A DNA stretch of 64,000 nt from assembly GCA_021404785.1 (NCBI GenBank), contig QWHH01000009.1:37542-101541 (forward strand), given 5' to 3'. Below the pieces are notes generated by a model. That model was not told the origin of the DNA. It was given only the letters and a program-made list of their open reading frames with translations, and ran no database searches. Positions 5,470 through 8,819 of the stretch are shown in pieces. Source of the stretch: Lysobacterales bacterium PRO7. GTDB lineage: Bacteria > Pseudomonadota > Gammaproteobacteria > Xanthomonadales > Rhodanobacteraceae. The translations under genes and the position numbers were made by a program. Positions within the stretch are counted from its first letter, which is position 1. Each line of letters opens with the position of its first letter.

Positions 5470-6486
5470 ATGAAGAAATCCGTTTCGCTCGCCGCCGTCG
5501 TGTTCACCCTGAGCGCGCACGCTGCCGCCCCCGCCGCCGCGTTGCCGAAGTTGCATGTCGATCCGGCTCGGGTCGCGGTGGCCGGCATTTCAGCCGGCGC
5601 CTACATGGCCACGCAGGCGCAAGTGGCTTACCCGGAAGTGTTTCGTGGCGCGGCGCTGATCGCCGGCGGGCCATACGACTGCGCGCAGGACAGCATCGCG
5701 ATCGCGGTGACCACGTGCATGAAGGGCGATCCGGCGCCCGATCCCGCCGCACTCGTCAAGATCGCGCAAGAGCGCGCCGCGAAGGGCGAGATCGGTCCGC
5801 TGGAAAAACTCGCTGGCGCAAAAGTATACATTTTGCACGGCAAGCAGGATCCGGTGATCGCCGAGTCAGTAGCGCACGCGGCCGTCGATTTCTACACCGC
5901 GCTCAAGGCAGCGATTCCGGCATTGTCGACACTGTCCGTGACCTGGGACGGCAGTCACGATTTCACCCATACATTCCCGACTGAATCAGCCGGAACGGCC
6001 TGCGACAAAGTCGGCACGCCGTACATCGGCAAGTGCGGATTCGACGGAGCTGGCGCGGTGTTTCAGGCGCTGTATGGCAAACCGGTGCACAAATCCGGCG
6101 CGGCGAAAGGCGAACTGCGCCGTTTCGACCAGGACGCGCTGCGACCCGGCGGCGCAGATGCGTTTCTCGCCGACGCCGGCGATGTGTACGTGCCGCTTGC
6201 CTGCCTGAAAGGCCGCCGCTGCGGTGTGCTGGTCGCCCTGCATGGCTGTCAGCAGAACCTCGACAGCGTTGGCGATGCCTTCGTGAAGGACGCCGGCTTC
6301 AACCGCTGGGCCGACGCCTACGACGTTACCGTGCTGTACCCGCAGATCCGCTCGGGCGTGGCCGCGAATCCGAAAGGGTGTTGGGACTGGTTCGGATATT
6401 CCGGCGCGGATTACGCCACCCGCAACGGCGTGCAGGTGCGCTGGCTGGTTGGCGCGCTGAAGGCGCTTGGCCGTCCGACCCATTGA
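5470..6486 (+). CDS. Secreted PHA depolymerase-like esterase
   Basis: A 338-residue exported alpha/beta hydrolase. A signal peptide covers about residues 1-22. The nucleophile motif GISAG places Ser41 unusually near the N-terminus, as in extracellular short-chain PHA depolymerases with a type 2 catalytic domain. The segments HGKQDPVI, GSHDFTHTFPT and ALHGCQQN fit the Asp, His and oxyanion regions of that family. There is no obvious substrate-binding or linker domain, so it may act on soluble oligomers rather than granules. It starts 13 nt after the MFS stop, consistent with one transcript, and is convergent with cfa. Hydrolysis of poly-3-hydroxybutyrate is family-based inference; feruloyl or other esters are possible. 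Confidence 0.8.
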   Translation: MKKSVSLAAVVFTLSAHAAAPAAALPKLHVDPARVAVAGISAGAYMATQAQVAYPEVFRGAALIAGGPYDCAQDSIAIAVTTCMKGDPAPDPAALVKIAQERAAKGEIGPLEKLAGAKVYILHGKQDPVIAESVAHAAVDFYTALKAAIPALSTLSVTWDGSHDFTHTFPTESAGTACDKVGTPYIGKCGFDGAGAVFQALYGKPVHKSGAAKGELRRFDQDALRPGGADAFLADAGDVYVPLACLKGRRCGVLVALHGCQQNLDSVGDAFVKDAGFNRWADAYDVTVLYPQIRSGVAANPKGCWDWFGYSGADYATRNGVQVRWLVGALKALGRPTH

Positions 6487-6495
6487 AAAAGCTCT

Positions 6496-7611
6496 TCAAC
6501 GTGGTGCGCGATACCCGCCCGGTACGCCATGCGGCGACAGTACCAGTTGCCAGAGCTGGTCGCGGCGCGAACGGAACACGGCGGCCGAGGCGGAAAGATA
6601 GAAACGCCACATGCGACGGAACCGTTCGTCGTATTTTTCCTTGAGCTGCGGCCAGGCGGCGTCGAAGTTCGCGCGCCAGGCCATCAGGGTTTTGTCGTAA
6701 TCGGCGCCGAAGTTGTGCCAGTCCTCGATCACGAAGACGCCTTCGCGCGCGGCGGCTATTTGCCCGGCCGATGGCAACATCGAGTTTGGGAAAATATACT
6801 TCGCAATCCACGGATCGGTGTGATTGCTGGATACACTTGAACCGATGCAATGCAGCAGCGCCAGGCCGTCGTCGGCGAGGCAACGGCGCTTGACCTCGAA
6901 ATAGGTGCGGTAGTTTTTTACCCCGACATGTTCGAACATGCCGATGGAAAAATTGCGGTCGAATTTCTCGTTGAGCGCCCGGTAATCCTGCACGCGGATT
7001 TCAATCGGCAGGCCTCGGCACAGGTTCTGCGCGAAGTCTGCCTGTTCGCGTGACACGGTGATGCCGACGCCACTGACGCCGTAACGTTCGGCGGCAAATT
7101 TCAACGCTTCGCCCCAGCCGCAACCAATGTCGAGCACGCGCATGCCGGGTTTGAGTTGCAGTTTGCGGCAGACCAGGTCGAGCTTGGCTTCCTGCGCGGC
7201 GTCGAGGTCGTTTGCATCCTTCCAGTAACCGCAGGAATACACGAGGCGCTTGCCGAGCATGGCCTGGAACAGATCGTTGCCGGTGTCGTAATGACGTTCG
7301 CCGATCACATACGCGCGGCGACCACGCTGCATATTGACGAGTTTCGACTTCAGCCACAGCCATGCGTCGTCAATGCCGTGGACTTTTTCGTCCAGATGCG
7401 CGACGAGCAGGCGAAACAGGAAACCGTCGAGGTCATCCGCGTCCCACCAGCCGTCCATATACGACTCGCCTAGGCCGAGAGAACCGTGCGCAATCACGCG
7501 GTGGTAGAAGTGCACATCGTGGATTTGCGGATCGCAGGCTCGCGATCCATCGATGGACAGCCCCGCTTGTTCAAGCAGGCATTCGATGCGAATTCGTGCG
7601 GAATTGCCCAT
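6496..7611 (-). CDS. cfa: Cyclopropane-fatty-acyl-phospholipid synthase
   Basis: A 371-residue S-adenosylmethionine-dependent enzyme that adds a methylene bridge to cis double bonds of membrane phospholipid acyl chains. The SAM site VLDIGCGWG is at about residues 159-167. Other family segments are GESYMDGWWD (about 48-57), ERHYDTGNDLF and SIGMFEHVGVKNY. The length is normal for the family. Its start lies 11 nt downstream of the DUF190 stop, so it appears to be the last gene of the riboswitch-controlled crcB operon. That is unusual company, because cfa is normally tied to stationary-phase and acid stress. It is convergent with the esterase gene, 9 nt apart. Confidence 0.95.
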   Translation of the reverse strand: MGNSARIRIECLLEQAGLSIDGSRACDPQIHDVHFYHRVIAHGSLGLGESYMDGWWDADDLDGFLFRLLVAHLDEKVHGIDDAWLWLKSKLVNMQRGRRAYVIGERHYDTGNDLFQAMLGKRLVYSCGYWKDANDLDAAQEAKLDLVCRKLQLKPGMRVLDIGCGWGEALKFAAERYGVSGVGITVSREQADFAQNLCRGLPIEIRVQDYRALNEKFDRNFSIGMFEHVGVKNYRTYFEVKRRCLADDGLALLHCIGSSVSSNHTDPWIAKYIFPNSMLPSAGQIAAAREGVFVIEDWHNFGADYDKTLMAWRANFDAAWPQLKEKYDERFRRMWRFYLSASAAVFRSRRDQLWQLVLSPHGVPGGYRAPR

Positions 7612-7622
7612 AAATGGTCCGG

Positions 7623-7970
7623 TTAGCGCGCTGGGGAGACGAGATCGGGCTCGGGCCGGTTGATCTCGCCGTAATCGGCCGGAAGGCAGGCGTAAAACAG
7701 GTTCACGTTCTCCGCTCGCAGTGCGGCGATCAGGGCTTCGGCTTGGGCCTCGTCGGCCATGAACTCGACCAGCACCGGTACATCGCCGGCGAGTTCGAAG
7801 AAATGCTGCTCGTGCATGCGGCCGTGACGACCGAAACCGGCGATGGCACGGAACGCTGAGCCGCCGTGGATGCCGCGGGCCTGTGCGAATTCGAGCAGCC
7901 ATTCGTACATCAGCACGCTGCCATGCTTGCGATTCTCGTAGGTGTAAAAACGCAGATGGATGCCTTTCAT
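7623..7970 (-). CDS. DUF190 family protein
   Basis: A 115-residue soluble protein of the DUF190 family, which often accompanies crcB fluoride channels. It resembles a small ferredoxin-like or PII-like fold. Visible family traits are the N-terminal LRFYTYENRKHGSVLMYEWLLE, then GSAFRAIAGFGRHG and LPVLVEF-like strands. It lies 9 nt downstream of crcB and 11 nt upstream of cfa. Its role is unknown; modulation of the channel is only a suggestion based on the conserved neighbourhood. Confidence 0.85.
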   Translation of the reverse strand: MKGIHLRFYTYENRKHGSVLMYEWLLEFAQARGIHGGSAFRAIAGFGRHGRMHEQHFFELAGDVPVLVEFMADEAQAEALIAALRAENVNLFYACLPADYGEINRPEPDLVSPAR

Positions 7971-7979
7971 GGGAGAGCC

Positions 7980-8366
7980 TCAGGCGCGGAAGAGAATTCG
8001 CATCAGGAGCAGGCCCGCCAGCGTCATTGCCAGCGATCCGAGCAGGTGCACGGAAACGGTCGCGACCGCCCATGCGTATTGCTGGCGCAGGAACAAGGTC
8101 ACGGTTTCGGCGGAGAAGGTGGAAAACGTGGTCAGGCCGCCGCAGAACCCGGTGGTGATGAACAGGCGCAGTTCCGGCGACAGGCTCTGGAACTGGGTGA
8201 ACACGCCCAGTGCGCAGCCGATGATGAAACCGCCGAGCAGATTCGCAGCGAGTGTGCCAAGCGGCAGGGTCGGCAGCAGCGGATTGAACCAGATGCCGAA
8301 CAACCAGCGCAGCACCGCACCGGCGAAGGCGCCTATGCCGACGGAAAACACGGATGCGAAATTCAT
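7980..8366 (-). CDS. crcB: Fluoride ion channel CrcB/FluC
   Basis: A 128-residue membrane protein with four hydrophobic helices that forms a dual-topology dimer exporting fluoride. The signature GFCGGLTTFSTFS in helix 3 and the conserved Asn in the GTLAANLLGGF segment are present. The length is typical. GGGAGAGG precedes the ATG by a few nt. The 5' leader contains a fluoride riboswitch at 8471-8530, so expression should rise with cytoplasmic fluoride. The next genes downstream are DUF190 and cfa. Confidence 0.95.
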   Translation of the reverse strand: MNFASVFSVGIGAFAGAVLRWLFGIWFNPLLPTLPLGTLAANLLGGFIIGCALGVFTQFQSLSPELRLFITTGFCGGLTTFSTFSAETVTLFLRQQYAWAVATVSVHLLGSLAMTLAGLLLMRILFRA

Positions 8367-8439
8367 ACCTCTCCCGGACAGCGGTTCAATCCGGAAGTGC
8401 AGATACGCGCAGCGGGTGCCGCGAGAGATGCTCGTGGCA

Positions 8440-8480
8440 ATGCCTGCGGGTATCCGGATCCCGGATACTCAAGCAGGCAT
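8440..8480 (-). promoter_or_regulatory. Riboswitch expression-platform hairpin
   Basis: ATGCCTGC (8480-8473) is complementary to GCAGGCAT (8447-8440), and within it GTATCCGG pairs with CCGGATAC around a GAT loop. The outer arm reuses the ATGCC that closes the aptamer, so aptamer and hairpin exclude each other. No T-run follows, so control is more likely translational or Rho-linked than by intrinsic termination. Confidence 0.75.
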
Positions 8481-8530
8481 CATCAGCCTTGCGGCGGTTC
8501 ACCCCGAGGGGCGGGAGGAATGCCATCTCC
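8471..8530 (-). promoter_or_regulatory. Fluoride riboswitch (crcB motif) aptamer
   Basis: Read on the minus strand, the RNA starts GGAGATGGCATTCCTCC and ends GGCTGATGATGCC. These are the hallmark conserved blocks of the crcB/fluoride riboswitch and are nearly identical at both ends to the well-studied Pseudomonas eriC example. GGCAT (8524-8520) pairs with ATGCC (8480-8476) as the closing helix. GGAG/CTCC makes a second helix, and GCC-GCAA-GGC a third with a GNRA loop. It lies just upstream of the fluoride channel gene, which is the expected target. Confidence 0.95.
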
Positions 8531-8544
8531 CTTGCTACGCCGCG

Positions 8545-8575
8545 ATGATAACGCAGTCACCGATGCAGCCGTCAA
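8545..8575 (-). promoter_or_regulatory. Candidate sigma70 promoter of the crcB operon
   Basis: TTGACG (8575-8570) and TTATCA/TATCAT (8551-8545) are separated by 18-19 nt. Transcription would begin about 10 nt before the aptamer. The promoter sits at the end of the preceding small gene. Confidence 0.55.
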
Positions 8576-8582
8576 GCATCGA

Positions 8583-8819
8583 CTAACCAGGTTGCGCGCC
8601 GCCGAGAAGCGCCTTGAGCAGCGCGAGGACTTCTTCCTTGGTGCCCATCACCGAGATGTGGTGCTCGCGCGGGATATCGGTACCCAGATTGACGGCGTAG
8701 CCCTGGCCGGCATCGTTGCCATCGTCGTCCAGGCGCGGGTAGGTTTCCACCTTGCCTACGTAGACGATGCTGTTGGCGTCGAGGTAGCGTCCGTCGGGAA
8801 GTTTCAGCCAGCGTTGCAT
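8583..8819 (-). CDS. Small conserved hypothetical protein, 78 aa
   Basis: I do not recognise a named family. The 78-residue protein starts MQRWLKLPDGRYLDANSIV, is acidic in the middle (LDDDGNDAG) and ends with a helix-forming KEEVLALLKALLGG. It looks like a small soluble beta-sheet plus helix domain with no membrane segment or signal. A good Shine-Dalgarno (GGAGGA) lies 6 nt before the ATG. It precedes the crcB promoter but probably belongs to the upstream minus-strand genes. Confidence 0.7.
   Translation of the reverse strand: MQRWLKLPDGRYLDANSIVYVGKVETYPRLDDDGNDAGQGYAVNLGTDIPREHHISVMGTKEEVLALLKALLGGAQPG

Follow-up and report, generated by a model that had tools for sequence, protein, structure and literature searches.

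Cyclopropane fatty acid synthase as a probable member of the fluoride regulon of Rhodanobacteraceae

The gene for cyclopropane fatty acid synthase, cfa, most likely belongs to the fluoride regulon of the Rhodanobacteraceae. In the window, a stretch of 64,000 nucleotides from contig QWHH01000009.1 of Lysobacterales bacterium PRO7, a fluoride riboswitch aptamer stands ahead of crcB, a DUF190 gene and cfa on the minus strand, and from this arrangement and its recurrence in relatives we consider it fairly probable that cfa is part of a unit that fluoride raises, likely for the benefit of the membrane barrier or of pH homeostasis when HF enters. The fluoride response, the switching mechanism, the coupling of cfa and the purpose of the arrangement are what we infer from the anatomy of the unit and from its conservation.

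The order of these elements on one strand had been proposed in a first-pass annotation of the same DNA, and the matches to RF01734 and to curated protein models bear it out, together with the gaps of 9 nt between crcB and DUF190 (7971-7979) and of 11 nt between DUF190 and cfa (7612-7622). The upper limit that had been set for the unit, 8530, truncates the aptamer, and the unit extends to about 8575 if a promoter-like sequence is included (Table 1). At the other end, the convergent esterase gene stops so close to the cfa stop codon that the unit ends with cfa. In phmmer searches the crcB product matches solved CrcB structures, for example 7kkr, and the DUF190 protein matches 1o51 and 2dcl. The PRO7 genome (2.8 Mb, 99.5% complete) contains a single RF01734 match and a single crcB.

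Table 1. Features of the cfa unit and its boundaries, in window coordinates
Feature	Position	Strand	Basis and details
Promoter-like sequence	8545..8575	-	-35 TTGACG 8575-8570, 19 nt spacer, -10 TATCAT 8550-8545
Fluoride riboswitch aptamer (crcB motif, RF01734)	8467..8539	-	50.8 bits, gathering score 34, model positions 1-64
Predicted alternative hairpin (anti-aptamer), uses the aptamer 3' strand	8439..8481	-	fold; without a U-run after it
Predicted hairpin over the crcB Shine-Dalgarno sequence and start codon	8364..8407	-	fold
crcB, Fluc fluoride exporter, 128 aa	7980..8366	-	PF02537 99.3 vs 32.9; NF010792 162.2 vs 125
DUF190 (COG1993) protein, 115 aa	7623..7970	-	PF02641 72.6 vs cut-off 23.4
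cfa, E. coli-type cyclopropane fatty acyl phospholipid synthase, 371 aa	6496..7611	-	NF008686 591.5 bits, cut-off 400
Convergent PHA depolymerase-like esterase gene (boundary)	5470..6486	+	NF050059; end 9 nt from the cfa stop
Upstream small ORF, 78 aa, no family (boundary)	8583..8819	-	end 43 nt before the aptamer

By its curated score the cfa product is an E. coli-type Cfa, and it is predicted to synthesize cyclopropane lipids. It shares its enzyme family (NF008686) with the product of E. coli cfa and aligns along its length with 6bqc (phmmer E 2.2e-130), a chain which we take to be the E. coli Cfa enzyme. The motifs YSCxYW, GMFEHVG, LLHxIGS and GADYD are common to the two aligned proteins and the active-site residues are present; in E. 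coli Cfa these are presumably C139, E239, H266, I268 and Y317, by number and by role. The cfa reading frame stays open upstream of 7611, and 7611 is the probable start, since the matches to relatives set in at residues 1-12. At E<=1e-60 the PRO7 genome holds one match to the window Cfa. Four further, weaker CMAS-family matches exceed the Pfam cut-off, and the idea that this is the sole cfa of the genome was dropped on their account; the best two lie on a single contig and both score under the NF008686 cut-off, and the best of all is 37% identical to the window Cfa across 255 aligned positions.

The promoter-like sequence, TTGACG-N19-TATCAT (8575-8545), is the sole site on the minus strand between 7612 and 8640 with at least 9 of 12 matches and a spacer of 16-19 nt, and a scan restricted to spacers of 16-18 nt did not pick it up. 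A spacer of 19 nt in nearly the same place is also found for the best promoter-like site at 12 of 20 loci of the family, the remaining eight having other spacers and mostly lower scores. With this predicted promoter, which comes from a consensus scan, the RNA would be expected to begin where the aptamer begins. On the minus strand, consensus scans gave no terminator-like site from the aptamer to cfa and neither a promoter nor a terminator ahead of cfa (7612-8366), although other promoter types would escape scans of this kind.

The fold of the leader has a z score of -2.52, with 2 of 200 shuffles equally good. Over nine sequences of the genus, one of which is the sequence that the structure was derived from, 86.7% of cells are paired, against at most 46.8% when the structure is slid, and nine pairs have changed on both sides, a number reached by 6 of 500 shuffles. 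The alternative hairpin is paired in 91.3% of cells in the same nine sequences and has four pairs changed on both sides, all in its upper stem; its nine outer pairs, those in competition with the aptamer, are in this set either unvaried or changed on one side only. In the hairpin over the crcB ribosome site, 90.5% of cells are paired in the inner helix and 63.8% in the outer helix, the outer half being weak. The ribosome sites themselves grade from strong at crcB (-7.7) through intermediate at DUF190 (-5.6) to weak and near random at cfa (-3.2, with a random median of -2.5).

From these features we would expect control to act on translation at crcB, with coupling to DUF190 and cfa. A leader of this apparently translational kind can bring cfa under fluoride control only if the genes are coupled along the mRNA; as the scan gave no terminator-like site in it, control could end with crcB. 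The order crcB-DUF190-cfa would in that case simply be inherited, with the riboswitch acting on crcB translation only and cfa running without fluoride control. We think this distinctly unlikely. A leader in which neither scan nor fold gives a terminator-like site speaks for it, whereas the two short intergenic gaps and the weak cfa ribosome site suit coupling.

In the mechanism that we prefer, in which the whole unit responds, transcription would start at the aptamer edge. At low fluoride the alternative hairpin would take the 3' strand of the aptamer and the second hairpin would hide the crcB ribosome site, leaving crcB poorly translated and, through the close stop-start coupling, DUF190 and cfa as well. 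Binding of Mg-fluoride would stabilize the aptamer, and crcB would be freed and the whole unit raised. CrcB would then export fluoride while Cfa would cyclopropanate unsaturated lipids of the same membrane, and the most likely gain would be a better barrier or better pH homeostasis as HF carries protons and fluoride in. HF is given as the permeant form in parts of a 2024 review, which also describe cytoplasmic acidification as accompanying fluoride exposure (PMC11139923), and for E. coli in stationary phase, cyclopropane content is named as one of the main determinants of acid resistance in parts of a paper in which it is undetectable in exponential cells (PMC7083825). A tighter membrane as protection from HF or acid, the physiology suggested in the first-pass annotation, would be a plausible benefit.

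A unit with this composition could also answer to acid in nature, with fluoride serving as a proxy for low pH since HF enters from an acidic medium. The sensor, however, is a fluoride aptamer that scores above the family cut-off. Riboswitches of this class are specific for fluoride, and acid alone, without fluoride, should not trigger them. In the part of an E. coli study that would favour a response to acid, cfa is named as up-regulated by acid and crcB, by the layout of the table, stands in the acid up-regulated columns (PMC1626474). We hold a response to acid as such to be quite improbable and fluoride itself to be the likely signal.

The Rhodanobacteraceae are a family of soil bacteria, and we searched relatives with RF01734 and with the window Cfa. 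Among 100 genomes, the window's included, the aptamer is present in 45 (37 of them over the gathering score), Cfa in 64 and both in 42, and cfa lies within 3 kb downstream of the aptamer on the same strand in 32. In the family set of 234 genomes, 161 have the aptamer and 211 have Cfa. Among the matches listed, both could be placed in 126 family genomes, with many of the aptamer matches below the gathering score, and 112 of these genomes have a same-strand aptamer 0.16-3.4 kb upstream of cfa; the first matched cfa base follows the aptamer at a median distance of 865.5 nt. Because of common descent, the 112 linked genomes stand for far fewer independent events. The 14 unlinked genomes include G008, from the window's own genus, as well as G013, with short contigs, and G526, and in the latter two a weaker or truncated aptamer could have escaped notice.

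A second view comes from the best 80 of 501 named Cfa loci in a species-representative collection, a set that overlaps the family genomes: 51 have a same-strand upstream aptamer, and crcB is present at 63. None of the 51 lacks a crcB match, although at one of them (L140) it is only a 56-residue remnant. Dyella, Rhodanobacter, Frateuria, Oleiagrimonas, Dokdonella, Rudaea and Luteibacter are among the loci with crcB, and 10 of the 17 without it bear Xanthomonadaceae names (Luteimonas, Pseudoxanthomonas, Vulcaniibacterium, Xanthomonas, Stenotrophomonas). At 12 of the 80 loci crcB and cfa occur together without a detected aptamer, as might be expected if cfa had merely kept its inherited place behind crcB. 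The Luteibacter loci L155 and L170 are of this kind; Dyella jiangningensis SBZ 3-12 (L141) has both aptamer and crcB, and Rhodanobacter sp. C05 (L157) also carries the unit. In the regions around cfa that were compared (61 chosen, G009 left out), crcB lies upstream of cfa in 42 of 60.

The gene content of the unit also varies within the family. In another genus, g24, DUF190 and cfa are separated by an inserted MFS gene, and the unit of G056 is still led by an aptamer; in G473 a remnant crcB match lies between the aptamer and cfa. In two close relatives without an upstream crcB, cfa directly adjoins the gene of a Na+/H+ exchanger (G016) or an MFS gene of the kind also seen in g24 (G010), in either case close behind it, on contigs that end before an aptamer could show. 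That crcB is gone from these two genomes and yet cfa still closely follows other transporter genes argues against simple inheritance of the crcB order. The fluoride islands of G024 and G526 contain a homologue of the G010-type MFS gene, with an aptamer about 650 nt ahead of it. Enolase genes, too, are found in fluoride islands of the Rhodanobacteraceae.

Further evidence comes from loci at which the aptamer directly precedes cfa. In G040, G565, G570 and G604, and at the second cfa copy of G024, cfa has its own aptamer, scoring no less than the gathering score, and the 163-191 nt from it to the first matched cfa base leave no room for crcB. Direct wiring of an aptamer to cfa without crcB speaks against a cfa that fluoride leaves untouched. 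G604 is near identical to G040 along this stretch and may be a misbinned contig rather than an independent case. Divergent from cfa in G024, G040, G565 and G604 runs a neighbouring operon, itself led by an aptamer, whose membrane subunits are similar to those of hydrogenase-4 and NADH dehydrogenase, a loose name given that the hydrogenase-4-like subunits score under the curated NCBIfam cut-offs. G570 has an enolase match behind another aptamer on the same contig. Two more candidates for direct wiring, G057 and G562, were rejected since their aptamer faces the hyf side, and they are counted as unlinked.

In a tree of 63 Cfa rows, all of the direct copies fall into one group with G057 and G562 (support 89/90, not starred), the direct copy of G024 on a long branch, and the aptamer-crcB-cfa label requires nine changes. 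The direct copies are best read as the product of one rewiring event that would later have spread, and there are probably two wirings in all. The regulatory link between fluoride and cfa that the first-pass annotation had postulated stands on the linked family genomes and on the direct aptamer-cfa loci, and is held back by a leader that looks translational at crcB and makes coupling necessary. The broader proposition, that the family uses lipid cyclopropanation as an arm of fluoride defence in which fluoride sensed by RNA would induce both an exporter and a lipid enzyme through the two wirings and the membrane would be remodelled against the entry of HF and protons, strikes us as evenly balanced.

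Outside the family we found the aptamer in 21 of 369 genomes of a class sample, with a CMAS gene in 18 of 19 when the window's genome and G080 are excluded, and in 61 of 398 genomes of a phylum sample, with a CMAS gene in 48 of 56 when G000, G021, G080, G088 and G095 are left out. In none of the 66 sampled outside genomes that hold both do aptamer and CMAS gene come within 5 kb of each other, the nearest pair being 64 kb apart, in a count that omits a second CMAS fragment of G126 on contig C212, the aptamer of that genome being on another contig. Fisher values for these counts assume independent genomes, which these are not, and are given no weight here. In the sister family f2, G080, G088 and G095 are unlinked, and G1008, one of the 66, is also a member. 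A survey of riboswitch operons for cfa, as the first-pass annotation had suggested, finds the combination to be common in Rhodanobacteraceae and to be missing from the genomes sampled elsewhere. In the samples taken, the aptamer-cfa link is a trait of one family, a restriction that would also be expected of a gene order passed on by descent with cfa as a mere follower.

Cfa genes on plasmids were considered as mobile fluoride genes and rejected: in six neighbourhoods from 72 Cfa-matching plasmid records, no crcB is listed within 9 kb in a gene table that is incomplete, and the family aptamer model gave a single match there, at L035, with 12.0 bits and E 0.6.

The main rival to a role of cfa in the membrane barrier is enzyme replacement, in which Cfa would itself be sensitive to fluoride and more of it would be made to keep lipid cyclopropanation normal, by analogy with enolase and pyrophosphatase. 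The active site of Cfa holds a bicarbonate ion, and fluoride or its metal complexes might disturb it. Precedent is provided by enolase as a known cargo of fluoride riboswitches in parts of PMC11139923, by ppaC and eno in the same capacity in parts of PMC5533749, and by the enolase genes of the Rhodanobacteraceae islands noted above. Fluoride inhibition of Cfa, however, was not met in the literature, in searches that touched the question only in passing. We regard replacement as unlikely, and favour a change of the membrane itself.

Defence against fluoride is usually described as export, ion or pH homeostasis and replacement of inhibited enzymes. Like other crcB-led fluoride riboswitch operons (RF01734; Weinberg 2010, Baker 2012), the PRO7 unit has the aptamer in its leader and transport or stress genes behind it, but its last gene encodes a membrane-lipid enzyme. 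The genes associated with the riboswitch in 2010 include, in the relevant part of the paper, mutS and genes for K+ or Cl- transport and formate hydrogen lyase (PMC2864571), and the word 'cyclopropane' is absent from the main text of that paper and from that of the 2024 review (PMC11139923). Changes in membrane structure and integrity under fluoride are mentioned in a portion of this review, and 'lipid' is absent from its main text.

The FRM operon of Enterobacter cloacae (ppaC uspA eno gpmA crcB orf5249) is likewise a riboswitch-led, multigene, fluoride-resistance operon, and its induction by fluoride was seen by RT-PCR according to the sections of PMC5533749 that deal with it. It differs in its content, which is a pyrophosphatase, a stress protein, two glycolysis genes, crcB and orf5249, with neither cfa nor DUF190 named in those sections. 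In E. coli, the cfa mRNA is a target of small RNAs such as RydC, as stated in parts of PMC6755755 and PMC11340327, and RF01734 has no match in the E. coli control genome, one of 14 controls.

The first-pass annotation had also held control of cfa by a fluoride riboswitch to be undescribed, and we met no such report in the open-licence literature: among the matches listed, none puts a cyclopropane fatty acid synthase under a fluoride riboswitch or together with crcB, and one deals with a fluorinated cyclopropane substrate instead. The supplement of Baker 2012 is said to list genes associated with fluoride riboswitches, and cfa may already be in that table.

HF enters through the lipid bilayer, and a conserved link between aptamer and cfa would amount to a regulated change of that very bilayer. 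The long-standing question of how cyclopropane lipids serve a cell could be put to a direct test in the aptamer-cfa unit, and the link may point to a way of helping defluorinating bacteria to withstand the fluoride that they release.

Among the crcB-cfa loci found within the 80 nearest named cfa loci (L105-L184), DUF190 accompanies the fluoride riboswitch aptamer, being present at 49 of the 51 loci with an aptamer versus 3 of the 12 without one, counts that ignore the kinship of the loci. At four loci (L098, L099, L190 and L192), DUF190 is moreover the first match downstream of an aptamer. Because DUF190 both co-occurs with the aptamer and directly follows aptamers, the sequence comparison hints at a role in fluoride biology for this uncharacterised family.

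Several single genomes carry many aptamers in fluoride islands, as observed at L087, L097-L099, L192 and L193 (genomes G024, G023, G595 and G526), and G505 and G583 also belong to this group. The number of aptamers per genome is 14 in G505, 10 in G526, 9 in G023, and 8 in both G024 and G595. Genes found near aptamers in the opened islands include enolase, hydrogenase-4-like operons, DUF190 and an MFS gene, and in the G024 island cfa is also among them.

The cfa stretch of G604 (contig C272, L187) is nearly identical to that of G040, a genome assigned to a different genus, a likeness that possibly reflects a misbinned contig or a recent transfer. Alternative neighbours of cfa, an MFS family member and a CPA2-type Na+/H+ exchanger, are found at L038 (G016), L041 (G010), and L065 and L069 (G056 and G039). 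Enterobacter hormaechei strain FRM, whose source is described as a high concentration of fluoride, has a plasmid bearing cfa (L031, NZ_CP019890.1); no crcB is present among the genes listed within 9 kb of this cfa, and an aptamer search at E ≤ 1 returned no match there.

The genome of the window itself (G000) holds further CMAS-like genes on another contig.

Additional CMAS-like genes in G000
Locus	Location	Feature	PF02353 score (bits)
L194	G000:C1:276000-287000	Two CMAS-like genes, close together	266 and 132

The Cfa of L127, a record named Pseudomonas sp. TTU2014-080ASC, is 73% identical to the window Cfa; it is more similar to the adjacent Xanthomonadales entries in the list of window-Cfa relatives, and the Pseudomonas sp. 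name may be wrong.
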